From contig JAPLNL010000112.1 in NCBI GenBank assembly GCA_026692905.1, forward strand, positions 1-64,000: a stretch of DNA of 64,000 bases. The letters run 5' to 3'. Position numbers and translations under genes: made by a program. The notes below the pieces were generated by a model. That model ran no database searches. It was not told the DNA's origin and saw only the letters and a program-made list of their open reading frames with translations. Below, one piece after another: positions 30,355 through 44,269 of this stretch. How positions within the stretch are numbered: position 1 is the stretch's first letter; each line of letters begins with the position of its first letter. This stretch comes from Planctomycetota bacterium. GTDB taxonomy: Bacteria; Planctomycetota; Planctomycetia; Pirellulales; Pirellulaceae.

Positions 30355-31728
30355 CTAAAAGGAATGATGGCCGTCCATCTTTTCGAGCATACGATAGAGG
30401 CTTCTGCGGGCGATGCCGAGTTCTCTTGCGGCTTTTGCTTTGTTGCCGTGATTGCGCTTCAAAACCTCGGTGATATGCAAATGCGATAGTGATTCCAATG
30501 GAATCGAATCGCCAATAGAAATCGTAGAGGTGGAGGCAACGAAGTTTCCGGTGCACGCAGTATGATTCAACTCCTGAGGAAGGTTCTCCAACGTTATCAT
30601 GCAATCGTCAGCCAAGATCTTGGCGCGCTCCAATGCATTGATCAGTTGTCGCACGTTTCCCGGCCATGGGCTGTTTTGAAACAATTCATTCACGCCGGGC
30701 CCAAGCTTCCATCGATCGCCAAGGAAATGGTGAATCAGAAGAGGAATGTCCCCTGGCCGCTCACGAAGCGGCGGGATTTTGATCGACAAAACATTAACGC
30801 GATAGTAGAGATCTTCGCGAAACCGGCCCGCGGCAACTTCTTTACCAAGGTCTCTGTTCGTCGCTGCAATCAATCGCACCTTAACCCGTCTCTCTTTGAC
30901 CGAGCCGATACGACGCATTGAACCATCTTCTAGCACTCGGAGTAATTTGGCTTGAAGCCCGCCTGCCAATTCACCAAATTCGTCGATAAAAAGTGTTCCA
31001 CCGTCGGCAATTTCGAATAGGCCCGGCTTAGCATCTGAGGCTCCGGTGAATGCACCTTTTTCATGCCCGAACAGCTCGCTTTCTAGGAGCGATTCGGGTA
31101 ACGCTGCACAATTGATAACGACAAGTGGCCGGCTAGCTAATGTGCTCTGCTCGTGAATCGCTCGCGCGACTAGCTCTTTCCCGGTTCCGCTTTCGCCCAA
31201 AATGAGTACGGGCTTGTCGCTTGGCGCAATGCGCTCGATCAATCGCTTGACCTCCGTGATGCCGGGCGAAGTTCCAATAAGTGGTTTCGTAGAGTTGGTT
31301 TGTGCTAACTGCCGCTTCAGATGTTTATTTTCCCTTTCTATTTTTCCGGTCCTGGCGGCATTGCGAATGAGCGTATCCAAATCATCCAATCCAAATGGCT
31401 TTGAAAGATAATCCACAGCCCCGTGCTTCATCGCTTCAACGGCCGACGCAATACTTCCCCCGCCTGTCAGCATGATGATGCGAAGCTCGTCGTCTTCAGC
31501 ATGCAGTCGCTTGAGCAACTCAAGGCCGTTCATCCCTGGCATGTTTTGGTCGATTACTGCCACGTGAAAATGCTGAGACGATTGTACCGCGATCGCTTGC
31601 TCGGCATTGGCAGCAGCCGAAACACGGTAGCCTTGACGCTGGAAGAAACGGCAGGCAGGCTCGAGAAAATCCGGCTCATCGTCTACCAGAAGTAGGTCGA
31701 TCGGTTCGGTCAATGCAGCGATTGCCAT
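30355..31728 (-). CDS. NtrC-type sigma54-dependent response regulator
   Basis: Phosphorylation-controlled activator of RNA polymerase with sigma54. Order: receiver (LLLVDDEPD, phospho-acceptor D60 in AVIDQNMPG, lysine in YLSKPFG), AAA+ core (LGESGTGKE, the sigma54 contact GAFTGA in [33 protein letters not shown]), and a Fis-type helix-turn-helix ([20 protein letters not shown]). The ATG at 31728 gives a normal 457 residues; longer frames upstream are not family-like. It is divergent from the cbb3 operon, whose promoter is of sigma54 type, and is the best candidate partner of the FixL-like kinase at the operon end. Confidence 0.93.
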
Positions 31729-31911: not shown

Positions 31912-32068
31912 CCCTACTTCAGTTGGATTGTACGAAATAGATTTGGACAGCGACAATTTGCCATTTTCGCAGAATCGATCCGCTTGGGTTGAAAAAGCCC
32001 GACGGAAAGTCCCCAACTGGCTTTCGCCCTCCGAGAATCTGGATCGCAAAATCTACGTATTTATGGAT

Positions 32069-32084
32069 TGGCACATGTGTTGCG
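32069..32084 (+). promoter_or_regulatory. Sigma54 (-24/-12) promoter of the cbb3 operon
   Basis: TGGCAC at 32069-32074 and TTGCG at 32080-32084, with exactly ten bases between the GG (32070-32071) and the GC (32082-32083), as the sigma54 consensus requires. Transcription would start near 32095, leaving about 83 bases to the ATG at 32178. This also rules out translation of the apparent coding sequence upstream of 32095. Confidence 0.8.
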
Positions 32085-32177: not shown

Positions 32178-34523
32178 ATGAAAGAAGTATCAGTCGCTTC
32201 CGCGAACGCGAGTCGACAAGCTACCAACGGATTGCAATCCGCGGTCATGGAATCGTTCAGTTATAACGACGGTATCGTTAGGATGTTTGTGACCGCGACC
32301 ATTCTTTGGGGGCTGGTTGGAACACTCGCTGGCGTGCTTGTTGCAACCCTGCTCGTTTTGCCGAACCTTTTCAGCGGCTTCAACCCAAATATAACAGCTC
32401 TGCTTTCGTTTGGTAGACTTCGTCCTGTCCATACCAACGCGGCCATCTTTGCCTTTGCCGGCAACGCCATCTTTGCTGCTATCTACTACAGCACTCAACG
32501 ATTGTGCAAGTGTAGGATGTGGAGCAGTACGTTGGGCTTGCTCCATTTCTGGGGTTGGCAAGCGATCATCGTTGCAGCAGCGATAACGTTACCACTGGGG
32601 ATCACTCAAGGTAAAGAGTACGCGGAGCTGGAATGGCCCATCGATTTGGCTATCGCGGTAGTATGGCTCGGGTTCTTCGGCGGAAATTTCTTTATGACCC
32701 TTTGGAAGCGACGTGAGCGGCACATGTACGTCGCGCTTTGGTTCTACATTGCCACCATCGTCACGGTCACTGTCCTGCATGTGTTCAATAACTTGGTGGT
32801 TCCTGTGGGGCTCGGCAAAAGCTACTCGGTCTATGCAGGAGTTCAAGACGCATTGATGCAATGGTGGTATGGCCACAATGCGGTTGCATTCTTCTTGACG
32901 ACCCCTTTTCTTGGTTTGATGTACTACTTCCTGCCTAAAGCAGCTGAGCGGCCTGTATTCAGTTACAAACTTAGTATCATTCACTTTTGGTCATTGGTTT
33001 TTCTTTATATTTGGGCGGGTCCACACCACCTTCACTACACTGCTCTACCCGAGTGGGCTTGTACGTTTGGGATGCTTTTTAGCGTGATGCTTTGGATGCC
33101 GTCATGGGGTGGGATGATCAATGGATTGCTGACATTGCGAGGTGCATGGAACAAGGTAACGTCGGACCCGGTTCTTAAATTTTTCGTGGTCGGTATTACC
33201 TTCTATGGAATGTCCACCTTTGAGGGGCCGTTGCTTTCGGTAAAAAGCGTCAACGCTCTTTCGCACTATACCGATTGGACGATCGCACATGTCCACTCCG
33301 GTGCGCTCGGCTGGAATGGGTTTATGACATTTGGAATGATCTACTGGTTGCTACCAAGATTGTACCAAACCAGGCTTTGGAGCAAGAAAATGGCGGAGTG
33401 GCACTTTTGGCTTGGTACCATCGGCATCCTGCTATACATCGTTCCCATTTATGCAGCAGGTATAACCCAGGGACTCATGTGGCGTGCAATGGACGATCTA
33501 GGACGAATGCAATATCCTAATTTCGTGGAAACGGTGCAGTCGATTATTCCGTTCTGGTGGGCGCGAGTGCTGGGAGGGGGGGTGTATGTCGTGGGAGTGG
33601 TGCTGCTCGCGATAAACGCTATCGCAACTTGGATGAGCCGACCGAGCAAGTATGAGGTGCCTGTCTATACAGCGGCACGACTCGAGCGACGATATCAAGA
33701 TGCCCCCGTTCCACCCAGCAAGTTGGCTGGAGCCCCCGTTTTGGAAGCGGCGGTTGCTATCGATCGAGTGACAAAAATGGATTGGCACCGACGCTGGGAA
33801 AGATTGCCGCTGCTGTTCACCGTGCTAACGACAGCAGCCGTCATCGTCGCAAGCTTGTTTGAGATCATTCCTACGTTTTTGATCCGAAGCAACGTTCCAA
33901 CGATTGCGAGCGTCAAACCGTACACTCCACTTGAACTTGCAGGACGGGACATCTATGTCAGCGAAGGCTGTTACAACTGCCATTCGCAAATGATTCGGCC
34001 GATGATTGCCGAAACGCAACGATATGGTGAGTATAGCAAAGCAGGTGAGTTCGTCTACGATCGACCGTTCCAATGGGGCTCTCGTCGAATCGGACCGGAT
34101 TTGGCTCGAGAAGGCGGACGTCAAAGCAGTTTCTGGCATTGGGAGCATTTCAACAATCCAGCTCAGCGCTCCCCTGGTTCGGTAATGCCAAGCTACGGCC
34201 ACTTGCTCGTCCAACGATTGAATTTTGGTGAGATCCAAAAGCGAATACATGCAGCGCACTTCTTAGGTGCTCCGTATGACCAAGAGCTCACTGACGCCGA
34301 AGCGATGGCGCGGACACAAGCTGAGGTCGTCGCGGCTGAAATCATCGCACAAGGAGGCACGGTATCTTTCGAAGGCAAATTGATCAAGGAATCGACGGCG
34401 ATTGCACTGATCGCATATATGCAACGCATGGGCAAGGACTTGTACCGAGTCGACACGCCAGTGCCGCCACTCGCGGAACCTGTACCGGACAAGGCACCCG
34501 AAACCGCACCCATGCCTCGATAA
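32178..34523 (+). CDS. ccoNO: Fused cbb3 oxidase subunits I and II (CcoN-CcoO)
   Basis: Catalytic core of a high-affinity cytochrome c oxidase that reduces O2 at low oxygen. The CcoN part has the haem and copper ligands in RPVHTNAAIFAF, GHNAVAFFLTTPFLG, GPHHLHYTALPEW and HVHSGALGWNG, with twelve-helix spacing. After a linker with one membrane helix comes the CcoO part with CYNCHSQMIRP (C598, C601, H602). The 781-residue fusion replaces two separate genes. A TTG-initiated frame from 31989 would start before the sigma54 promoter, so I use the ATG at 32178. Confidence 0.93.
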   Translation: MKEVSVASANASRQATNGLQSAVMESFSYNDGIVRMFVTATILWGLVGTLAGVLVATLLVLPNLFSGFNPNITALLSFGRLRPVHTNAAIFAFAGNAIFAAIYYSTQRLCKCRMWSSTLGLLHFWGWQAIIVAAAITLPLGITQGKEYAELEWPIDLAIAVVWLGFFGGNFFMTLWKRRERHMYVALWFYIATIVTVTVLHVFNNLVVPVGLGKSYSVYAGVQDALMQWWYGHNAVAFFLTTPFLGLMYYFLPKAAERPVFSYKLSIIHFWSLVFLYIWAGPHHLHYTALPEWACTFGMLFSVMLWMPSWGGMINGLLTLRGAWNKVTSDPVLKFFVVGITFYGMSTFEGPLLSVKSVNALSHYTDWTIAHVHSGALGWNGFMTFGMIYWLLPRLYQTRLWSKKMAEWHFWLGTIGILLYIVPIYAAGITQGLMWRAMDDLGRMQYPNFVETVQSIIPFWWARVLGGGVYVVGVVLLAINAIATWMSRPSKYEVPVYTAARLERRYQDAPVPPSKLAGAPVLEAAVAIDRVTKMDWHRRWERLPLLFTVLTTAAVIVASLFEIIPTFLIRSNVPTIASVKPYTPLELAGRDIYVSEGCYNCHSQMIRPMIAETQRYGEYSKAGEFVYDRPFQWGSRRIGPDLAREGGRQSSFWHWEHFNNPAQRSPGSVMPSYGHLLVQRLNFGEIQKRIHAAHFLGAPYDQELTDAEAMARTQAEVVAAEIIAQGGTVSFEGKLIKESTAIALIAYMQRMGKDLYRVDTPVPPLAEPVPDKAPETAPMPR

Positions 34524-34580: not shown

Positions 34581-34769
34581 ATGCTAAAAGACGTGATTTG
34601 TAAGTTAGATTACTCGAATTTCGAGGAGATCGCGTTGGTGATTTTCGGATGTTGTTTCGTCGCGATCGTGTGGGGAGCAACTCGATTGAAACGAGAATCG
34701 ACCGATCGTTTCAGCAGTATTCCAATCGAAGACTCCGTTGTCGATCCATGGAAGGGGAGCGAATCATGA
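34581..34769 (+). CDS. ccoQ: CcoQ-like small subunit
   Basis: 62 residues with one membrane helix (IALVIFGCCFVAIVWGATRL) and a hydrophilic tail ending in DPWKGSES. Size, topology and place between ccoNO and ccoP fit CcoQ/FixQ, which stabilises the oxidase. The stop overlaps the ccoP start as ATGA. Confidence 0.75.
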   Translation: MLKDVICKLDYSNFEEIALVIFGCCFVAIVWGATRLKRESTDRFSSIPIEDSVVDPWKGSES

Positions 34770-35356
34770 GCACGCAAGTACCAAGCCACGATGAAGTTGC
34801 GTTAGGGCACAGCTACGACGGTATTCAAGAATACGATAACCCGCTGCCCGGTTGGTGGAAGTGGACGTTCTGGGGGACTATTGTTTTTACTCCGTTGTAC
34901 ATCATGTATTTTCACAGCGGTGCAACAGGTCGTTCCGTTGAAGAGCAATATCAGGCGAGTGCGACTGAGAATACGAGAAAGCAATATGCGGAGATCGGCG
35001 ATTTGGCGAGCGATCAGCCGACCATGGTCAAGTACATGCAGGAACCCAAATGGGTTGGCGTGGGGCAATCGATTTTCAAAGCAAATTGTGTTTCATGCCA
35101 TGGGGCCGACGGCGGCGGCAATGTCGGGCCCAACTTGTGCGACGAGAACTTCAAGCACATCAAGACACTTCCTGACATATTGAAGGTCATCCATGATGGC
35201 GTTGCTGGTGGCGCGATGCCCGCTTGGGGCAAGCGTTTTTCGCACAAGAATGATGTGGTCTTGGTTTCGGTTTATGTTGCCAGTTTGCGTGGCGCGAAAC
35301 CGGCGGTGGCGAAAGCTCCCGATGGCGGCCCGATTCCCCCATGGCCAAGCGAATAA
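34766..35356 (+). CDS. ccoP: cbb3 oxidase subunit III (CcoP), single-haem form
   Basis: Membrane-anchored cytochrome c that feeds electrons into the oxidase. The N-terminus has YDNPLPGWWKWTFWGTIVF, the typical CcoP helix. Only one CxxCH is seen (CVSCHG, C108-C111-H112), with a later methionine in GGAMPAWGKRF as probable axial ligand. Classical CcoP has two haems, so this 196-residue form is shortened. A longer upstream frame runs through ccoQ and is rejected. The stop overlaps the next ATG (TAATG). Confidence 0.9.
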   Translation: MSTQVPSHDEVALGHSYDGIQEYDNPLPGWWKWTFWGTIVFTPLYIMYFHSGATGRSVEEQYQASATENTRKQYAEIGDLASDQPTMVKYMQEPKWVGVGQSIFKANCVSCHGADGGGNVGPNLCDENFKHIKTLPDILKVIHDGVAGGAMPAWGKRFSHKNDVVLVSVYVASLRGAKPAVAKAPDGGPIPPWPSE

Positions 35357-36912
35357 TGATGAACACGCAAAATCCACTCCCTATTTATCCAGGTGATGCC
35401 TCTCAACAATCATCGTGCGTCACCAAGTGCGGTAAGTGCTCGGGAGCAGGCAAGTGCGCCAGTCACGACGATCGCTCGGACTCGCTGTTAACTGCTGACG
35501 AAAAGGTATTACCAACGCTAAATAGCGATGGGAGTCGCATTTGGATCATTCCATCGCTAGCCCGTGGATTTCTATGGAAACGTAGACGGTGGTTAGCGTA
35601 TGGGCTCATCGCCTTTTTTGTTACTTTGCCTCACTTGCGAATCGCAGGCAAGCCGTATGTGCTATTCGATATCGCTAGCCGCCAATTCACGTTTCTTGGT
35701 CATACGTTTTACCCAACGGACACGCCCCTTGTGGCATGTCTCATGCTGATCGCATTTTTTTCCGTGATGTTGGTAACTGCATTAGCGGGACGTGTCTGGT
35801 GTGGTTGGGGGTGTCCCCAGACAGTCTACTTGGAATTTTTATTTCGTCCCATCGATCGCTTTTTCGCCAACACGGTTGGACGAGGAGGCAAGTCTCGCAA
35901 ATCGCTGCAACCGCTTGCGATGGTAGGCAGATTTGTAGTCTACTTGATTTGCTGCCTGTTTTTGGCACACACGTTTTTAAGCTACTTTGTGAGCACCGAT
36001 ACGTTGGCAAAATGGATGCAAACCTCACCGGTCAAACACCCAACTGCGTTTCTGGTTATGGGAGGCGCAACGGTTGGACTTATGTTTAACTTTCTCTACT
36101 TTCGAGAGCAGCTCTGCATGATCGCTTGCCCGTATGGTCGATTGCAATCGGTCATGCTGGATCGCACCTCGTTTATCGTCGCGTACGATTCGACGCGAGG
36201 TGAGCCGAGGAAGAAAGGGAAGCGGATTGAAAAAGAGGAAGCGTTTCAGAATGCCAATGGGGAAGTGCTAACGCTTGATTCGTTGGCCATTCAAAGCGCG
36301 GGCGATTGTGTCGACTGCGGGCGATGCACTGCCGTTTGTCCAACCGGAATCGATATACGCAATGGCCTGCAAATGGAATGCATCCATTGTGCGCAGTGCA
36401 TTGACGCCTGCAATCAAGTGATGAAAACCATTGGCAGACCCACCGGACTTATTCGCTATTCGACGCAGGATCAGCTGGCTGGAAAACCGGTAAACATGAT
36501 TCGGCCGAGGACGATCATTTATCCCACGATCATCTTGATCGCTGCGGGTTTGTTTTTCGCAGTGCTCTCTACCAAGTTCTCGTTTGACAGTCGTATCATG
36601 GGAGCGCCAGGTGTACCGTTCACGATTGGCTCCGATCAAGCGGTGCAGAATAATTTTCAAGTGAGATTGGTCAATCGAAGCCAGAAAAATCAGGTGTATT
36701 CGGTAGTTGTCGATGACGGAGAGATCGTTGCGAAGTGGAGCAGTGGTGACTCTGTTCGTTTAATGCCTGGTCAATCGGTAATGATACCACTCGACATCCA
36801 CTTTCCGAGGCCCAAAACGACTGGTACAGGTTATCACGATGCAAAACTCATCATCGTAGACAGCAACGACTCAAAACGATCTATTCCAATCCGACTGACA
36901 GGGCCTAGGTAA
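35356..36912 (+). CDS. ccoG: Cytochrome c oxidase accessory protein CcoG (FixG)
   Basis: Membrane ferredoxin-like protein needed for copper handling during cbb3 assembly. It has AGRVWCGWGCPQTVYLE, five or so helices, REQLCMIACPYGR, and two 4Fe-4S sites, CVDCGRCTAVCP and CIHCAQCIDACN, followed by a C-terminal Ig-like domain. The N-terminus has an unusual cysteine cluster (CVTKCGKCSGAGKC) that could bind metal. The ATG overlapping the ccoP stop is chosen; the ATG at 35341 would lie inside ccoP. Confidence 0.93.
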   Translation: MMNTQNPLPIYPGDASQQSSCVTKCGKCSGAGKCASHDDRSDSLLTADEKVLPTLNSDGSRIWIIPSLARGFLWKRRRWLAYGLIAFFVTLPHLRIAGKPYVLFDIASRQFTFLGHTFYPTDTPLVACLMLIAFFSVMLVTALAGRVWCGWGCPQTVYLEFLFRPIDRFFANTVGRGGKSRKSLQPLAMVGRFVVYLICCLFLAHTFLSYFVSTDTLAKWMQTSPVKHPTAFLVMGGATVGLMFNFLYFREQLCMIACPYGRLQSVMLDRTSFIVAYDSTRGEPRKKGKRIEKEEAFQNANGEVLTLDSLAIQSAGDCVDCGRCTAVCPTGIDIRNGLQMECIHCAQCIDACNQVMKTIGRPTGLIRYSTQDQLAGKPVNMIRPRTIIYPTIILIAAGLFFAVLSTKFSFDSRIMGAPGVPFTIGSDQAVQNNFQVRLVNRSQKNQVYSVVVDDGEIVAKWSSGDSVRLMPGQSVMIPLDIHFPRPKTTGTGYHDAKLIIVDSNDSKRSIPIRLTGPR

Positions 36913-36919
36913 GCGTATC

Positions 36920-37474
36920 ATGATCAACCAATCTTCTCCGCAACTTTCGACGGTTCAGCTCGCAAAGCGTGAGCGCAGATCGATGCGATTTTGGGTATTC
37001 TTTATTTGTTGCTTTTTTGCAATCGACTTTACCGTAGCTGCTATTGCGATTTCTATGGCCGCGGGTGATCCCTCGTTTCGCTCCATTCCAGGTTACGGGG
37101 AACGAGCCGTTGCCTGGGACGTTCGACAAGCAAGAAAGCAAGCCTCGAAAGAATTGGGCTGGAATGTTCAGATTGAGCGATCTGGTCCAAGCCTCAATGA
37201 AATGATCATTACGGTTTCCGATGCCGAGAGTAAGCCCGTGGTCGACTGCAATGGGTCGGTACGAATGTTTCATTTCACGCGAGTGGCGGAGCAATTCGAA
37301 GGCAAGCTGATTGAATCCGCTCCAGGTGTCTACCGCGTCCCAATCGACGTCACGAAACCAGGACGTTGGCAATTAGAATTAGAAATCCGAGCGAGTGGCG
37401 ATCGTCCATTTTGGGACGAGCGGACGCTCAACTGGTTTGAACTAGCTGGTCAGGAGAGCGCAGTCAGCCAATGA
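36920..37474 (+). CDS. ccoH: FixH/CcoH-like assembly protein
   Basis: 184 residues: one N-terminal membrane helix (FWVFFICCFFAIDFTVAAIA) and an exported beta-sandwich typical of FixH, ending in PGRWQLELEIRASGDRPFWDER. It helps cbb3 assembly together with CcoG and CcoI. It follows ccoG by 7 bases and overlaps the next gene as ATGA. Confidence 0.85.
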   Translation: MINQSSPQLSTVQLAKRERRSMRFWVFFICCFFAIDFTVAAIAISMAAGDPSFRSIPGYGERAVAWDVRQARKQASKELGWNVQIERSGPSLNEMIITVSDAESKPVVDCNGSVRMFHFTRVAEQFEGKLIESAPGVYRVPIDVTKPGRWQLELEIRASGDRPFWDERTLNWFELAGQESAVSQ

Positions 37475-38277
37475 ACGCTGTAGAGTTAGTGATAGCTACT
37501 TTGTTTTCGTCCCTTGTTGGTTCGATGCATTGCGTGGGAATGTGTACGCCGTTTGCGATACTCGCCATGGGACCAGCCACGGACATCAAGGCCAATCGTG
37601 GCTTCCGGATGGGTTCCTACCATTTCGGAAGACTGGTAACCTACTGGACCATGGGGCTTGGCGTTGCTTTTTTGAGTTCGTCGCTACGGTGGTTTGGAGG
37701 CGGCAATCATGGGCTGCAGATTGTTGGTTGGGGAGTTGGGTTTACGATGATTGCGGTCGGCCTCGTGCGATTGATATCGACCTTCTCATGGCAAATGCCA
37801 GTTCGACATTCACGATGGTCGTTGGTTTGGTCGTCGGTGATTGTTAAGCTTCGACGAAGCTATCGGGGTGGGCCGGTCTGGATCAGTTCGTTCTTATGGG
37901 GGCTAACTAGCACATTGTTACCCTGTGGTTGGCTCTATTTGTTTGTGCTAGCAGCGGCTGCGGCACCGAACGCATTGATGTCGATTGCGATGATGACGGC
38001 CTTTTGGATCGGGACGTTGCCTTTGCTTTCGGTGGCAGCATGGGGTTGGTCATCGGTGAGTCCTCGGTGGCAGGTTTTTGCTCAGCCATTTGCTGCGGGG
38101 TGCATTATCAGTTTCGGTGTTTTCATCTTGTTTCAGCGAAGTCTCGTCGATTTGAGTTCGCTAACTACTAGAGAACGAACCGAGAGAACATCGATCGGCA
38201 GTTCCCTGGAATTGGTGCGAAATGCTACGGAAGTAACGCTTCCCTGTTGTGGAGTTGAAAATGCTAAAAGCCCCTGA
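37471..38277 (+). CDS. TauE/SafE-like membrane protein of cbb3 loci
   Basis: A 268-residue protein with six or so helices. GSMHCVGMCTPFA near the start and TLLPCGWLYLFVLAAA in the middle are the paired half-repeats of the COG2836-type membrane family often found next to ccoI. Cysteines in these motifs may bind copper. Its role in copper delivery to the oxidase is inferred from context. The end overlaps the start of ccoI. Confidence 0.8.
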   Translation: MNAVELVIATLFSSLVGSMHCVGMCTPFAILAMGPATDIKANRGFRMGSYHFGRLVTYWTMGLGVAFLSSSLRWFGGGNHGLQIVGWGVGFTMIAVGLVRLISTFSWQMPVRHSRWSLVWSSVIVKLRRSYRGGPVWISSFLWGLTSTLLPCGWLYLFVLAAAAAPNALMSIAMMTAFWIGTLPLLSVAAWGWSSVSPRWQVFAQPFAAGCIISFGVFILFQRSLVDLSSLTTRERTERTSIGSSLELVRNATEVTLPCCGVENAKSP

Positions 38278-40750
38278 AAGAGTACAGCGTGAAACTCGAC
38301 TGACTCGCGCCTGTTCGCATTGTGGTCTACCGGCATCGGCGATGCCGAGCGATGAGACTGCATTTTGTTGCAATGGCTGCATGGGGGCTTATGCGCTGAT
38401 TCATGATCTTGGACTAGAGAGTTATTATGATTTGAAGTCGGCCGTGTCCTCCACGAACATGGAGAGCGTACGAGAGCAAACCACGCGCTCGCACGTGCTC
38501 GAAGACCTTGAAGCGGCTGGCGTTCCCGTTCGTACCATGGCGGATGGAAGCTGTGCGGTACGATTGGCGGTCGACGGCATGCATTGTGCTGCGTGCACTT
38601 GGCTGATCGAACGAGTTCAGCCCACGATTCCAGGGTTGATCAGTGCTCAAGTTCGGATGAGTGACCAGACCGTTGAATTGGTATACGATCCAACCCAAAC
38701 GCAACCGATCGATGTTTCCAGGAAGCTGGCGAAGCTAGGCTATTCGCTAGCACCGTGGGCCGTGGACAGCGAGGACGATCAGGGATTTCAACAGCAACAG
38801 CGCGAACACTGGAGCGGGATCGCGTTGGCGGGGTTTTTTGCTGCGAACGCGATGTGGATCGGCATTGCGCTTTACGCTGGCGAAGCGACAGGCATGACCG
38901 CTGGCCATGAGACTTTTTTGCGATGGGTCGGAACTTTGCTCGCGGTTTTGGCCGTTGCGTTGCCTGGCCGAATGTTTTTTTATACAGCTTGGCAAGCGAT
39001 TCAAACGCGTACTCCACACATTGACATTCCGATTGCGTTGTCGTTGCTGATCGGAACGCTTGGTTCTTTGGTTGGAGTCGTACGCGGAGTTGGTCATATT
39101 TATTTTGACTCGTTAGCTTCCTTGATTTTGTTGCTTCGAATTGGGCGGTTTATCCAGTTTCGCGTTCAGTATCGCACGAGCCTATCTCTCTCTCGCCTGT
39201 TGCGATGGAACACTGTCACCGCAACGCGAATCGAGTCCGATGGTACGCGCAAGACCATTCCGACCAATCGTCTTGTGCCAGGCCAAAGGTTGGAAGTTGG
39301 TCCGGGAGAGACGATACCTGCTGATGGAATTGTCGTCGCAGGGCGAAGCAAGATCGATACATCGCTAATCAACGGCGAATCGCATCCGATCGCTGTTAGG
39401 GCTGGCGAGGCCGTTGAGGCTGGCACTACGAATATTTCGTCAAGCATTGAGTTGGAAATTACGGCGGCGGGGGAAAATAGTCGGGTAGGGCGATTGATGG
39501 AGTTGGTTCGAAGTGCTTCGGCACAGAGAACACCTGCGACCTTGTCTGCTGATAAACTAAGCAAATGGTTTGTATTGGCTGTTTTGCTTTTGGCCGTTGG
39601 AACGTGGTTTGCTTGGGCGAATCTGGCGAACGCTACGGTTGCGACACAGCATACGATGGCGCTGTTAACGATTGCATGTCCCTGTGCGTTGGCTTTGGCT
39701 GCTCCGCTGGTAATCACAGTCGCGCTTGGCCGGGCGGCTAGGCGACAGATCTGGATTCGCGATGGCAACTGCTTGGAACGGTTAGCGACTCCAGGAATTC
39801 TTTGGCTGGACAAAACCGGCACATTGACGACCGGACGAATGCGAGTTCTCGCATGGCACGGCCGCTCCGATCCGCTTCAGTATGCTGCGGCTTTAGAGCG
39901 AACCATTCGCCATCCAATCGCGGATGCTATCTCTGCGTTTGCTGCCGAAAGAGGAATCGAAACATCGCTTGCAGACGTTGAGCAGTTGGAGCATAGTCCA
40001 GGAAGAGGGGCCAAGGGCATGGTAAACGGCTACATAGTCGCGATTGGTACAGAAGCCTGGCTCCACGAGCAAGGTACCGAGGTATCAAGCAGTTGGTTGA
40101 AGCTACAAGCAAACGCATTTCAACATGGCCGGTCCGTGGTTTGGCTGTCCATTGCGGGAGAACTTTGTGGAATGTTTGAGACAGGCGATCCATTGCGAAC
40201 CGACGCAATTATAACATTGCGTGCTATATCCGAGAGAGGTTGGCGATTGGGTCTCCTCTCGGGTGACCGACAGGAAGTGGTTGATGGTTTAGCATTTTTG
40301 CTGGAGGAAAGCGGCGTGCCAGTCGAAAGGGCGTTGGGCCAACAAAGTCCGGAAGACAAGTTGGAAGTCATACGTGAAGCAAAGGGGGACCGGGCTCATC
40401 CCGTTGCGATGGTTGGTGATGGGGTGAACGATGCTGCGGCGCTCGCGATGTCCGATGTGGGTATTGCGATACGAGGCGGAAGCGGTCAATCGCTGGTCGC
40501 TGCCCCGATTTTTTTGGCAAACGATCGGCTTTCTTCCGTTTTGGAATTGCTGGATGCTTCGACAAGCGTCAAGCGAGGCATTCGACGGTGCTTTGCGGCT
40601 TCGTTGATTTACAATACAGTGACGATTACTCTGGCTATGTTCGGCTGGATTCATCCTCTCATCGCGGCCGTACTCATGCCGATTAGCGGACTGACCGTGC
40701 TGACCATGGCGATGACGACGAACGCGTTCCCAAGAGAGACTTTAAAATGA
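38261..40750 (+). CDS. ccoI: CcoI/FixI-type copper P1B ATPase
   Basis: Exports copper for assembly of the oxidase CuB site. Order: a four-cysteine N-terminal site (CSHCGLP, CCNGCMGAY), a heavy-metal domain (GMHCAACTWLIERV), membrane helices with TIACPCALALAAP, the phosphorylation motif DKTGTLTTG, HP (RTIRHPIADA) and GDGVNDAAAL. The ATG at 38261 has GGAG seven bases upstream, so I prefer it over the GTG at 38249. It overlaps the upstream gene by 17 bases and ccoS by four. Confidence 0.93.
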   Translation: MLKAPERVQRETRLTRACSHCGLPASAMPSDETAFCCNGCMGAYALIHDLGLESYYDLKSAVSSTNMESVREQTTRSHVLEDLEAAGVPVRTMADGSCAVRLAVDGMHCAACTWLIERVQPTIPGLISAQVRMSDQTVELVYDPTQTQPIDVSRKLAKLGYSLAPWAVDSEDDQGFQQQQREHWSGIALAGFFAANAMWIGIALYAGEATGMTAGHETFLRWVGTLLAVLAVALPGRMFFYTAWQAIQTRTPHIDIPIALSLLIGTLGSLVGVVRGVGHIYFDSLASLILLLRIGRFIQFRVQYRTSLSLSRLLRWNTVTATRIESDGTRKTIPTNRLVPGQRLEVGPGETIPADGIVVAGRSKIDTSLINGESHPIAVRAGEAVEAGTTNISSSIELEITAAGENSRVGRLMELVRSASAQRTPATLSADKLSKWFVLAVLLLAVGTWFAWANLANATVATQHTMALLTIACPCALALAAPLVITVALGRAARRQIWIRDGNCLERLATPGILWLDKTGTLTTGRMRVLAWHGRSDPLQYAAALERTIRHPIADAISAFAAERGIETSLADVEQLEHSPGRGAKGMVNGYIVAIGTEAWLHEQGTEVSSSWLKLQANAFQHGRSVVWLSIAGELCGMFETGDPLRTDAIITLRAISERGWRLGLLSGDRQEVVDGLAFLLEESGVPVERALGQQSPEDKLEVIREAKGDRAHPVAMVGDGVNDAAALAMSDVGIAIRGGSGQSLVAAPIFLANDRLSSVLELLDASTSVKRGIRRCFAASLIYNTVTITLAMFGWIHPLIAAVLMPISGLTVLTMAMTTNAFPRETLK

Positions 40751-40893
40751 GCGTACTCTATGTTGCCATGCCCATCGCATTGCTGTTGGGGGGAGCCGCC
40801 CTATTGGCTTGTTTGGCGTGCATCCGGACAGGCCAGTATGATGACTTGGAAACTCCGTCGATCAAGCTTCTCAATGACGAGATGAAATCGTGA
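40747..40893 (+). CDS. ccoS: cbb3 assembly protein CcoS
   Basis: A 48-residue protein easily missed because of its size. It has one membrane helix (MPIALLLGGAALLACLACI) followed by TGQYDDLETPSIKLL, the CcoS signature. CcoS is needed for cofactor insertion into cbb3. Its ATG overlaps the ccoI stop and its stop overlaps a GTG, both by four bases. Confidence 0.92.
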   Translation: MSVLYVAMPIALLLGGAALLACLACIRTGQYDDLETPSIKLLNDEMKS

Positions 40894-42172
40894 CCAACCA
40901 TTTCTTTACGCGAATTGCATTTTGTTTCCTTATCGCTGCAGGAGCGCCGACGGGAGTTTTGGGAGGGGGCGACGATGACTTTGAACGAGCGCCGATCGAT
41001 TATCATACAAGTTTGTAGCATGATCAGGTTGCGAAGCTATTGGAGCGAGCGGGAGCTATTTGCGATCTTTGCTTAAGGCGCTGAATGTACCTGAGTCCTC
41101 GCAATGTCTGGTTTTCTCGAAAACAAGCTTGCAAATTCCGCATATCAGTCCAAGAACTCCGCGAGCGATTTACTTCAACGACTCGGTTTACATCGGGTCC
41201 GTGATTGGCAGCTCGATCATGGAATTGATCGCTGTGGATCCGCAGCTTGGTTGCGTCTTCTACACGCTAGAAAAAGAAGCGAGTGACTATAGGATCATTC
41301 GCGATCGAGGGCAATGTCTGTCTTGCCACGCAACATCCCGAACTGAGCGAGTTCCCGGTGTGGTCGTTCGATCGATATACTCAGACAAATCAGGACGGCC
41401 AAGGTCAGGTTCGTCGACTTACATCACGGACCATCGCAGCCCGTTTGAGCAGCGCTGGGGGGGGTGGTATGTTACGGGAGAACACGGGGCAATGAGACAT
41501 CTCGGCAATGCTTTTGCAATCGACCGAGAGGATCCACAGCGAGTGGACATGGAGTCGGGGGCAAATCAATCGCGACTTCCCGCATCGGTTGAGGGTGACA
41601 ATTATTTGGCACCAACCAGCGACATTGTCGCGTTAATGGTCTTGGAGCATCAGACACGAATGCATAACTTGATTACACGCGCGAACTACGAAGCTAGGCA
41701 AGCGGCGCACTTAGACCAGTCGATGAATGAAGCCCTCGGCCGGGCAAAAGACCATGTTAGCGAATCGACGGGACGAAGGATCGCAAGTGTTGGAGATGCA
41801 CTTATCGCTGGTCTTTTGTGGTCCGAGGAAGTCGCTCTCGAGTCAACGATCAAGGGGTCGAGTGGGTATGCGGAGGAGTTTTCGGCTCGCGGGCCATTTG
41901 ATTCCAAAGGCAGGTCGTTCTACCAATTGAACTTGAAGAAACACATGTTTCGAATCCCGTGCAGTTACATGATCCTTTCGGAGCATTTCGATGGATTGCC
42001 TGCGTCCGTGATGACGTACGTGAAAGACGAGTTGAACAAGATTTTAACAATGCAATGCTTTCCGCCGAAAGGCAGTCGTTTGAGCAGTGAAGACTGCTTG
42101 GCGATATACGAAATGTTACAAGAGCTGAAACCGGGTTGGTTGGAGCAACGGGCAAGCAAGGAGTCAAAATAG
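40890..42172 (+). pseudogene. Damaged gene for an exported monohaem cytochrome
   Basis: The GTG at 40890, coupled to ccoS, opens a signal peptide (IAFCFLIAAGAPTGVLGG) and mature start ERAPIDYHTS, then meets TAG at 41016-41018. The same frame continues with HDQVAKLLERAGA, and the protein resumes in another frame at about 41060 (RSLLKALNVPESSQ) for 370 residues with a CLSCHA haem site. The continuous remainder lacks a signal peptide, so it could not get haem outside the cell. One nonsense codon and one frameshift are needed to explain this. A sequencing error is the other option. The long intact remainder suggests recent damage. Confidence 0.7.
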
Positions 42173-42173
42173 G

Positions 42174-43292
42174 ATGACTGACAACATCCAGGATACCGCG
42201 TTGTTGGCTGCAATCTTGAATACCGCAGTGGATGCCATTGTCACGATTGATCAGAAAGGGACAGTGTTGCACGTCAACAGGGCCTTTGGGAAACTTTTTG
42301 GTTTCACCGCGGAGGAGGTTGTTGGAAAAAACATATCGATGTTGATGCCAGAACCGGATAGGTCATCGCATGACGGATATTTGGAGCGTTACAGCCAAAC
42401 GGGTAAAGCCGCTATTATTGGTGTTGGTAGACAGGTGCTCGGGCAACGTAAAAATGGCTCGCTCATTCCGGTTGATCTGGCGGTAAGCGAGGTGAAAATC
42501 GGCGATCGGACTCTCTACGCAGGGATTATGCGGGACATGACGGAGCGGCATCAGACTGAGGCCGATTTGCATATGACTCAGCAGAAACTCATTCAAAGCG
42601 AGCGATTGGCTGCGATTGGTCAAATGGTTACGGGACTTGCACACGAAAGTCGAAATGCACTGCAGCGATCTAGGGCTTGCTTGGACATGCTAAGTCTCGA
42701 TCTTGAGTCCGCACCTGAACAACAGGATCTTGTGCGTCGATCGCGTTCTGCGTTGGTCGAGTTGCAAACCCTTTACGAAGAGGTTCGAAACTATGCGGCT
42801 CCGATTCAGCTTGAACGATCCAGGCAGAGTCTTCACCGCATGTGCTCCGATGTTTGGGGGAATCTTAGCGATCAATGGCGTGCGCCGAATATTCAACTTG
42901 TGCTGCGTTTTGAACCTTGCCCCGATGTGAAGTGCGATAAGCAGCGAATAGGTCAGGTTCTACGCAATCTTTTTGAAAATTCGCTAGCAGTAGTGCCTCC
43001 TCACAGTCAAATCTTGGTCGCTTGCAGGACGATTGAACCGAAGGGAAATTTTGGGCCGCGAGTTGAATTGAGCGTGACCGACCAAGGACCGGGGTTGAAC
43101 CCGAGCCAAATGGCAAGGATTTTCGAACCGTTCTTCACAACGAAGACAAAAGGAACTGGCTTAGGGATGGCGATTTGTCAACGCATCATTGAGGCACATG
43201 AAGGCCGAATTTATGTTGGGGAGTCACCGAACTATGTTGAGCAGTTGCAGCCCGTTGGTGCAACGATCGTGGTCGAATTGCCCATTGACTAG
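42174..43292 (+). CDS. FixL-type haem-PAS oxygen-sensing histidine kinase
   Basis: A soluble 372-residue kinase. The PAS domain reads MLMPEPDRSSHDGYLERY, with H66, R72 and R86 (in IIGVGRQV) at the exact spacing (+6, +20) of the haem-ligand His200, Arg206 and Arg220 of Bradyrhizobium FixL. The kinase has H157 (GLAHESRN), an N box (RNLFENSLAVV), DQGPGL and GTGLGMAI. No receiver or membrane helix is present. It starts one base after the damaged cytochrome gene and is probably co-transcribed with the cbb3 operon. No FixJ-like gene is nearby; the NtrC-type regulator at 30355-31728 is the likely target. Confidence 0.88.
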   Translation: MTDNIQDTALLAAILNTAVDAIVTIDQKGTVLHVNRAFGKLFGFTAEEVVGKNISMLMPEPDRSSHDGYLERYSQTGKAAIIGVGRQVLGQRKNGSLIPVDLAVSEVKIGDRTLYAGIMRDMTERHQTEADLHMTQQKLIQSERLAAIGQMVTGLAHESRNALQRSRACLDMLSLDLESAPEQQDLVRRSRSALVELQTLYEEVRNYAAPIQLERSRQSLHRMCSDVWGNLSDQWRAPNIQLVLRFEPCPDVKCDKQRIGQVLRNLFENSLAVVPPHSQILVACRTIEPKGNFGPRVELSVTDQGPGLNPSQMARIFEPFFTTKTKGTGLGMAICQRIIEAHEGRIYVGESPNYVEQLQPVGATIVVELPID

Positions 43293-43307: not shown

Positions 43308-43323
43308 TGGCACGATAAGTGCA
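43308..43323 (+). promoter_or_regulatory. Sigma54 promoter of the stress-protein gene
   Basis: TGGCAC (43308-43313) and GTGCA (43319-43323) with ten bases between GG and GC. The -12 element has one mismatch from TTGCA. The predicted start near 43334 leaves 33 bases to the ATG at 43367. Confidence 0.65.
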
Positions 43324-43366: not shown

Positions 43367-44269
43367 ATGAGTTCTAAATTAGCACAATTGCAACGAATTT
43401 TGGTTGCGACGGATTTTTCATCCCATTCGAAAGTCGCGCTTAGCTGCGCTGTCGAACTTGCAAGGTTGTTTCAGAGCCAGCTCAAAGTAGTACATTGTTT
43501 GCCTGACTTTGCATTTGTTCCTTCCGCTTCGGAATTCGGACTGCCGTTCGATGATTACATGTTGATGCAGCAGGATTTTCGAAGGGAGGCAGTCAATTCG
43601 ATGGAGGAATTCTTAAGCGAGAGTCTGCCAAAGGATGTTCCTGTAAGCACATCGATGCTGATGGGAAACCCTCCGTTTGAAATATCGGAATTCGCAGAAC
43701 AGGAGAAAGCCAACTTGGTTGTCGTCGGTAGAACGGGGCAATCTGGGTGGGGCCAATTCTTGTTGGGTAGCACAAGTCGTGGTTTGGTGAACCGATGCCC
43801 GTGTTCGGTACTCTCGGTAAACGACGACTGGACTGGCAAGCCAAAAACGATTTTGGTGGGCACTGATTTTTCGGATGGTTCGCGCACCGCTGTTGAAGAA
43901 GGAGTGACTTTGGCAGAAAAGTACGGCGCCGAGTTGCACCTGCTGCATGTCATTGATACGTCTGACACACCATCGCACAATGTTAAGCGACTGTCAGGCC
44001 ATGAGTCGATGCGGAAATCGATCAATGATTATGCGCAATCGCGATTGGAAACGTTTGTTCAGTCGCTTAAGTGTACCGCCTATCCGATTAAGCTTCATCT
44101 CAATTGGGGAACACCATGGCGCGACATGTGTCAGCTTGCAACAACAATTGCTGCCGATCTCATCATCGTTGGCAATGTTGGACGGCGCGGCATGCAAGGC
44201 ATCTGGTTAGGTAACACTTCGGACAAGATTCTGACCCACAGCAAGTTAAGCGTTCTCGCGGTGAAATGA
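43367..44269 (+). CDS. Tandem universal stress protein
   Basis: 300 residues with two UspA domains. Each opens with the ILVATDFSSHS or ILVGTDFSDGS strand and ends with the ATP-loop pattern: VVGRTGQSGWGQFLLGSTSR and IVGNVGRRGMQGIWLGNTSD. GAGGA lies upstream of the ATG at 43367; a GTG at 43331 would start at or before the predicted transcript start. In other bacteria such proteins accompany low-oxygen regulons, which suits its place after the FixL-type gene. Confidence 0.88.
   Translation: MSSKLAQLQRILVATDFSSHSKVALSCAVELARLFQSQLKVVHCLPDFAFVPSASEFGLPFDDYMLMQQDFRREAVNSMEEFLSESLPKDVPVSTSMLMGNPPFEISEFAEQEKANLVVVGRTGQSGWGQFLLGSTSRGLVNRCPCSVLSVNDDWTGKPKTILVGTDFSDGSRTAVEEGVTLAEKYGAELHLLHVIDTSDTPSHNVKRLSGHESMRKSINDYAQSRLETFVQSLKCTAYPIKLHLNWGTPWRDMCQLATTIAADLIIVGNVGRRGMQGIWLGNTSDKILTHSKLSVLAVK

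Follow-up and report, generated by a model that had tools for sequence, protein, structure and literature searches.

Can a planctomycete histidine kinase sense oxygen through a FixL-type haem and, if so, which genes would it control? The question is raised by a kinase gene in a 64,000-nucleotide stretch of Pirellulaceae DNA, the whole of which is referred to here as the window. A first-pass annotation had singled out three residues of the encoded protein that match haem-ligand residues of Bradyrhizobium FixL and, from these residues and the matching sequence around them, had proposed oxygen sensing; the cbb3 oxidase locus in which the gene lies was omitted from that argument. A FixL-type haem PAS domain and oxygen sensing by this planctomycete protein are, as predictions, well supported by the sequence, by a modelled structure and, above all, by the cbb3 oxidase locus. 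The proposal thus gains support from its genomic context, while the three-residue argument on which it was first based proves weaker. With its sensor, regulator, promoter and target operon, the locus presents a specific and testable circuit.

Results

A PAS histidine kinase gene lies at the end of a cbb3 oxidase cluster

The open reading frame is real, and H66, R72 and R86 stand where they had been placed. Pfam recognizes a PAS domain that begins at about residue 11, a HisKA domain (24.4 bits, below the cut-off of 26.9) and a HATPase_c domain. The catalytic boxes of the kinase are intact (HESRN box at 157, N box at 265, G1 at 303 and G2 at 327).

42174–43292, + strand: FixL-type PAS sensor histidine kinase, 372 aa, ATG start; by Pfam, PAS at about 11–130, HisKA at about 149–208 (H157) and HATPase at 255–371
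42204–42536, + strand: PAS domain, in which H66, I81, I82, R86, L102 and V104 correspond to FixL H200, I215, I216, R220, L236 and I238

The kinase is the last gene of a complete cbb3 cluster (ccoN, O, P, G, H, I and S). The same-strand order is ccoNO, ccoP, ccoG, fixH, the DsbD_2 gene, ccoI, ccoS, a gene for a CXXCH protein, the kinase gene and a universal stress protein (USP) gene.

32178–34523, + strand: ccoNO fusion, cbb3 oxidase subunits I and II
34649–35356, + strand: ccoP-like gene, FixP_N and cytochrome c domains (ccoP model score 120.9, below the cut-off of 179.95)
35341–36912, + strand: ccoG/fixG
36920–37474, + strand: ccoH/fixH
37471–38277, + strand: DsbD_2-family membrane protein within the cco cluster
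38249–40750, + strand: ccoI/fixI-type copper P-type ATPase with an uncertain start codon; its matches are to general models of copper/heavy-metal ATPases
40747–40893, + strand: ccoS/fixS, 48 aa
41060–42172, + strand: orphan protein with one CXXCH (c-haem) motif, kept beside the kinase in the genus
43367–44269, + strand: double-domain USP, a possible co-regulated gene

A divergent regulator gene, followed by ccoNO through ccoI, the CXXCH protein and the kinase, is found in all four other loci of the genus with a long enough stretch (L040, L042, L045 and L047). Of the genus loci read, this one and L039 alone have the USP gene next to the kinase.

The CXXCH protein, which may be part of the system, had no match at E ≤ 0.001 in Pfam or NCBIfam. 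In the window (40894–42172) its gene is broken near the 5' end by a stop and a frame change; its orthologues in L039, L040, L042, L047 and L048 have an open frame and, by eye, a signal-peptide-like start. Because this neighbouring gene is broken, the kinase locus may be under relaxed selection in this genome. A second, divergent ccoN-like oxidase gene is present elsewhere in the genome (G000:C126:64368-65750) and in its nearest relative (G021:C79:14491-15873).

The putative haem-ligand histidine is invariant and R72 is not

The spacing claimed against Bradyrhizobium FixL holds: the alignment runs without gaps through HDGYLERY and IIGVGRQV. In the structural alignment described below, model residue 20 pairs with FixL residue 154, a constant offset of 134, and therefore H66, R72 and R86 correspond to H200, R206 and R220. 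Two of the three residues are conserved. H66 and R86 occur without exception in the 15 compared PAS domains (the window and 14 relatives), in all 80 named loci, which are the closest of 573 candidates, and in the 29 best-scoring further loci of the window's phylum. The R86 count in the 80 loci is biased by a search pattern that contained R86; H66 was in none of the patterns. Position 72, that of the propionate-contacting Arg206 of FixL, had been listed as equally conserved; it is Arg in 4 of the 15 (that is, in 3 of 14 close relatives), in 31 of the 80, where Asn is commonest (39/80), and in 15 of the 29. It is His in the nearest orthologue, L039, which is 94% identical.

Among members of the FixL/DosP and Aer2 clusters with a known structure, His is described as the only invariable haem contact, and within the FixL/DosP cluster the F-alpha His is named the primary determinant of haem binding, with the remaining contacts secondary (PMC10468136). 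The three-residue argument is thus weaker than it was stated to be, because R72 varies freely among orthologues and His is the sole contact reported as invariable; judged from these alignments, R72 appears incidental among the three. Its variability is no argument against haem, since variants of Sinorhizobium FixL at this position (R200A, R200Q, R200E and R200H in its own numbering) are reported to have FixL-like haem spectra, yet to autoxidise in air (PMC10765370). The Soret band of Sinorhizobium FixL is reported near 418 nm for the oxy and 434 nm for the deoxy form (PMC10765370).

As a sequence pattern, the match to FixL exceeds chance. Among the 29 PAS matches of the window's own genome, the motifs HDxYxxxY and IIGxGR occur together only in the kinase PAS (profile alignment), and His in column 66 with Arg in column 86 is found in three: the kinase PAS, C39:39358 and C52:4465, the last of which looks misaligned. 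The statement that most PAS kinases lack these residues holds within this genome. In the phylum, however, PAS domains of the FixL type are common, with 60 of 246 genomes (own genome included) having one at E ≤ 1e-25. The PAS at G000:C39:39358-39696 has its His and Arg in the FixL columns within a different surrounding motif (HHVQLREDF...MGKGRQLTAVRKDGS).

The predicted PAS structure resembles FixL haem domains

In a PDB sequence search with the PAS domain, the best seven matches were FixL haem-domain chains (E 6e-30 to 4.5e-27), followed by DosP. An AlphaFold2 model, built from an alignment that joined the kinase PAS to 66 of the 80 loci (the 14 omitted were mostly near-duplicates), had a pLDDT of 88.8. 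When this model was compared with known structures by Foldseek and VIA-align, the top 13 rows were all FixL haem-domain entries (Z 19.6–21.2), and the best superposition, on the haem domain of Bradyrhizobium FixL, gave 0.8 Å over 114 residues at Z 21. Next, each at Z 16.4, came DOS/DosP of E. coli and an uncharacterised PAS from Colwellia; the NifL FAD-PAS scored Z 14.3. The structure prediction that had been suggested as a check on the annotation thus returns a FixL-like fold, in a predicted model that contains no haem.

The predicted pocket matches that of O2-binding FixL at I81 (I215), L102 (L236) and R86 (R220), and V104 replaces I238. Residues 1–130 of the kinase contain no Trp and no Cys. 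As Trp is described as a mark of FAD-PAS domains and Cys as a mark of LOV domains (PMC10468136), the composition of this region disfavours FAD as the cofactor.

An NtrC-type regulator and a σ54 promoter lie upstream of ccoNO

Upstream of ccoNO, and divergent from it, lies a gene for a response regulator composed of a receiver, a σ54 AAA+ domain and an HTH_8 domain, in which D60, the Walker motifs and GAFTGA are intact. It adjoins a −24/−12 promoter, and a σ54 gene, rpoN, is present in the same genome (Sigma54_DBD match).

30355–31728, − strand: NtrC-type σ54 response regulator, divergent from ccoNO; receiver D60, GAFTGA at 225, Walker A/B, Fis-type HTH
31949–31965, + strand: imperfect palindrome AGCGACAATTTGCCATT, a candidate regulator-binding site; a related motif also precedes ccoNO in genomes without the kinase
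32069–32083, + strand: −24/−12 (σ54) promoter TGGCAC-N5-TTGC, 95–109 bp before the ccoNO start
43308–43322, + strand: second −24/−12-like site, one mismatch, located between the kinase and USP genes; also in the nearest orthologous locus, L039

A perfect TGGCAC-N5-TTGC occurs in the 64 kb only at 32069–32083. With up to one mismatch allowed, the window has 8 sites where 5.65 are expected, so that single matches mean little by themselves and it is conservation that matters. From shuffles, the chance of such a match is about 0.007 per 150 bp on one strand. In the whole genome there are 37 perfect strings against 12 in a reversed control; two strings account for 17 of the 37, which leaves single sites only slightly in excess. 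These two, TGGCACGATATTTGC (7 copies) and TGGCACTCACTTTGC (10 copies), are more likely parts of repeated elements than individual promoters, since they are multi-copy and several are at contig ends.

The promoter is retained and lost together with the regulator and kinase

Within the genus, ccoN is present in all 27 genomes. A kinase orthologue (at least 64% identity) is found in 12, and the regulator (at least 78%) in 13, namely the same 12 and G026; the regulators of G003, G012 and G017 were counted from partial matches. Promoters were counted in 25 of the 27 genomes; G003 is omitted because its ccoN locus was not returned and G008 because the upstream DNA was missing, and in G005 228 bp upstream of ccoNO were readable. 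All 12 readable genomes that keep the regulator (kinase in 11 of them) have, at −83 to −148, a −24/−12 site in which GG and GC are intact and no more than one position differs; nine of these sites are perfect. G026 was counted as having the pair on its regulator alone: in this genome, which is 82% complete, promoter and regulator are present and the kinase was not found. None of the 13 genomes without the pair has an intact promoter within 260 bp. Their best strings in this interval have three mismatches in nine genomes, four in two, two in G025 and one in G022; G020 has a two-mismatch string at −657 from ccoNO. On the ccoN tree, the pair label needs two changes, and the comparison thus amounts to two phylogenetically independent contrasts, not 25; both are concordant, and two are too few for significance in a test of independent gains and losses.

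G022 represents, as read from its sequence, a natural decay of regulator, kinase, CXXCH protein and promoter, and it acts as a control. Its site (TGGCACGAACGTTGT, at −127) has its single mismatch in the −12 GC, which has become GT. In the corresponding locus (L240, G022:C4:62000-80500), 58 aa of the regulator, the last 102 aa of the kinase and 116 aa of the CXXCH protein remain at their old places (E ≤ 1e-6). The ccoG gene of this genome matches in two separate pieces.

Other candidate control elements upstream of ccoNO

Palindrome discovery in eight representative pair genomes gave a best motif of 14.7 bits, compared with 10.5–11.3 for shuffled sequences and 12.9–16.4 for four control sets from genomes without the pair. 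The search found no site specific to pair genomes, and one control set was higher in information content; as 14.7 bits falls within the control range, the palindrome is not put forward as the regulator's own site. Run on all 12 pair genomes, the search gave a different candidate, TGTGNCA-N3-TGGCACA. No consistent FNR-type box was found before ccoNO in genus genomes with or without the pair. Of 12 scanned genus genomes that lack the pair, 9 share the identical string TGCTTCAATCTGTCGCG upstream of ccoNO, and pair genomes have a related palindrome, TGCGACAA-N-TTGTC. These sequences hint at a possible second regulator acting on ccoNO. A different FixL-type PAS protein is encoded in at least four of the genus genomes that lack the pair, and the His is kept in all four of these proteins that were fetched; judged from these matches, the pair is therefore not the sole FixL-type sensor in the genus.

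The kinase core resembles that of planctomycete kinases with other sensors

The two halves of the kinase have different affinities. The PAS domain is 48% identical to that of Sinorhizobium FixL. The kinase core is 42–50% identical to planctomycete kinases with other sensors (L052–L057) and 26% identical to the core of Sinorhizobium FixL, which ranked 19th, below these planctomycete kinases. A PAS domain close to FixL on a core nearest to planctomycete kinases suggests a domain exchange, in which a kinase of a kind already paired with an NtrC-type regulator received a new sensor. The protein thus looks like a planctomycete kinase in which the oxygen-sensing part of FixL has been joined to a different signalling engine. 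The NCBIfam FixL model NF041777, a rhizobial model, is the top-ranked hit at 227.9 bits against a cut-off of 850.

Nine more distant loci share this kinase core. Three (L049–L051) carry the His, six (L052–L057) have sensors without it, and a regulator 51–56% identical lies within about 2.5 kb in six of the nine. No cco genes were found in the stretches read from these loci, save a weak ccoI-like match in L056. L049–L051 come from other families (genomes G045, G042 and G059), in which the pair of His-bearing kinase and regulator lies away from cco. No −24/−12 site was found upstream of the ccoNO genes of G042 and G059, and no ccoN match was found in G045; these findings therefore indicate that the pair has different targets in other families. 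In Rhodopirellula europaea (L109), Stieleria (L124) and Roseiconus (L131), a kinase with the planctomycete core (42–45% identical) is encoded directly upstream of a separate FixL-type PAS kinase, and an NtrC-type regulator domain, 65% identical, is also nearby in L131. Such tandem kinases may share one regulator.

Discussion

A proposed circuit for oxygen control of the cbb3 oxidase

We consider it likely that this kinase is a haem-PAS oxygen sensor that, via the NtrC-type regulator and σ54, controls the cbb3 oxidase. At high oxygen, O2 on the PAS haem, with H66 as proximal ligand, would hold the kinase off. At low oxygen, the deoxy kinase would autophosphorylate at H157, and the phosphate would pass to D60 of the divergently encoded regulator. 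The phosphorylated regulator, together with σ54, would then fire the −24/−12 promoter before ccoNO and switch on the genes for the high-affinity cbb3 oxidase and for its assembly; the USP gene may be induced as well, via the second −24/−12-like site. The direction of switching, with the deoxy form active, is assigned by analogy with FixL. We infer the binding of haem and O2 by the PAS domain, the phosphotransfer to the 30355–31728 regulator and the action of that regulator at the ccoNO promoter.

We also lean, on balance, towards the broader view that the Pirellulaceae have a low-oxygen switch of their own, in which a FixL-type haem PAS, a planctomycete kinase core and a σ54 activator would link O2 directly, in one step, to the cbb3 promoter. 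In this view an exported c-haem protein may give the switch an accessory signal input, since the gene for the CXXCH protein adjoins that of the kinase across the genus and has decayed along with it in G022. If so, the wiring of the switch would be separate from both FixLJ-FixK and NmpRSTU, and the same type of sensor would control the cbb3 oxidase here as in FixLJ, but by way of another kinase core, another class of regulator and another sigma factor.

Other readings of the locus

The PAS haem could report NO, CO or the cellular redox or haem status instead of O2, with the same regulator still acting on cbb3. There are structures of FixL haem domains in complex with NO and with CO, and a c-type haem protein that is kept beside the kinase and decays alongside it could feed in a redox signal. 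We regard this as unlikely: the target is a cbb3-type O2 reductase, the pocket residues I81, L102 and R86 match O2-binding FixL, with V104 for I238, and no denitrification gene was recognised in the 17 reading frames of the window scanned with Pfam.

That the kinase and regulator lie beside cco yet control other genes, the −24/−12 site serving another σ54 activator, seems to us quite unlikely. Such an arrangement would fit the position of the pair away from cco in other families, and also the palindrome search, in which no pair-specific binding site was found; set against it is the finding that regulator, kinase and promoter are retained together and decay together.

Alternatively, the PAS domain may have kept its residues by descent while sensing FAD redox or a small molecule, so that oxygen control would be incidental. 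About 40% of FixL/DosP cluster members are described as lacking the His and may sense other things (PMC10468136), and this kinase family itself includes the His-lacking sensors of L052–L057. The invariance of H66 and R86 in 15 of 15 domains, the lack of Trp and Cys in residues 1–130 and a structural Z to FixL about 7 above that of the NifL FAD-PAS make this reading very improbable. Finally, the idea that a standard FixL orthologue came in by transfer and is served here by a FixJ-type partner is almost certainly wrong for this kinase, for although its PAS is 48% identical to that of Sinorhizobium FixL and the NCBIfam FixL model ranks top, its core is far closer to L052–L057 (42–50%) than to Sinorhizobium FixL (26%), its equivalog score is 228 against a cut-off of 850, and the regulator in the locus is NtrC-type rather than FixJ-type (receiver and LuxR-type HTH).

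Relation to known oxygen-responsive systems

The best reading of the oxygen-sensing circuit is that the kinase works like FixL without being a FixLJ orthologue, and that the system is a rewired variant of known parts. With FixL-FixJ of Bradyrhizobium and Sinorhizobium it shares the haem-PAS fold (here predicted), the ligand residue, the PAS-then-kinase layout and a link to cbb3 expression; FixLJ is named as a cbb3 regulator (PMC11841059), and in R. leguminosarum hFixL-FxkR-FixK is described as driving fixNOQP (PMC7888657). It differs in its kinase core, in having a σ54 activator as the regulator in the locus and in a σ54 promoter placed directly at ccoNO, where the rhizobial systems use a FixK cascade. 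The closest precedent for the wiring is NmpRSTU of Myxococcus xanthus, described as a haem-based sensor kinase that acts through an NtrC-like regulator on a σ54-dependent regulon including a cbb3 oxidase operon, and whose target mxan_4236 is reported to rise in hypoxia; there, however, the sensor is a globin-domain kinase (NmpU) acting with a hybrid kinase (NmpS), whereas the present locus has a single FixL-type PAS kinase (PMC11841059).

Among the matches listed in a search of the open-access literature, there was no paper on a haem-based O2-sensing kinase in planctomycetes and none on a system combining FixL with NtrC, σ54 and cbb3. NtrX belongs to the NtrC family, and Brucella NtrY binds haem. 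By its description, NtrYX of Neisseria may be set beside the present system as a PAS kinase and NtrX regulator tied to respiratory enzymes at low O2, although NtrY is described as a membrane HAMP-PAS kinase (PMC12697260). DosP of E. coli also has a haem PAS, which falls in the same structural cluster (Z 16.4), but its output is named a cyclic-di-GMP phosphodiesterase (NCBIfam).

A gene for ccoN lies within 10 kb in 15 of the 80 named FixL-type-PAS loci: 13 from Bacteroidota, one from Rhodothermales and one from Pirellula (orthologue L090), most of the 15 being from Pedobacter. The orthologous kinase loci L089 and L090 are both from uncultured Pirellula sp. The Bacteroidota kinases (L095, L102, L103, L107, L110, L112, L120, L138, L139, L140, L149, L150 and L154) resemble the present one in their type of PAS and in the nearby ccoN. 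They differ in their kinase core, none of the 13 matching that of the window kinase at E ≤ 1e-10, and weak FixJ-like regulators are found in three of these loci (L103, L139 and L150).
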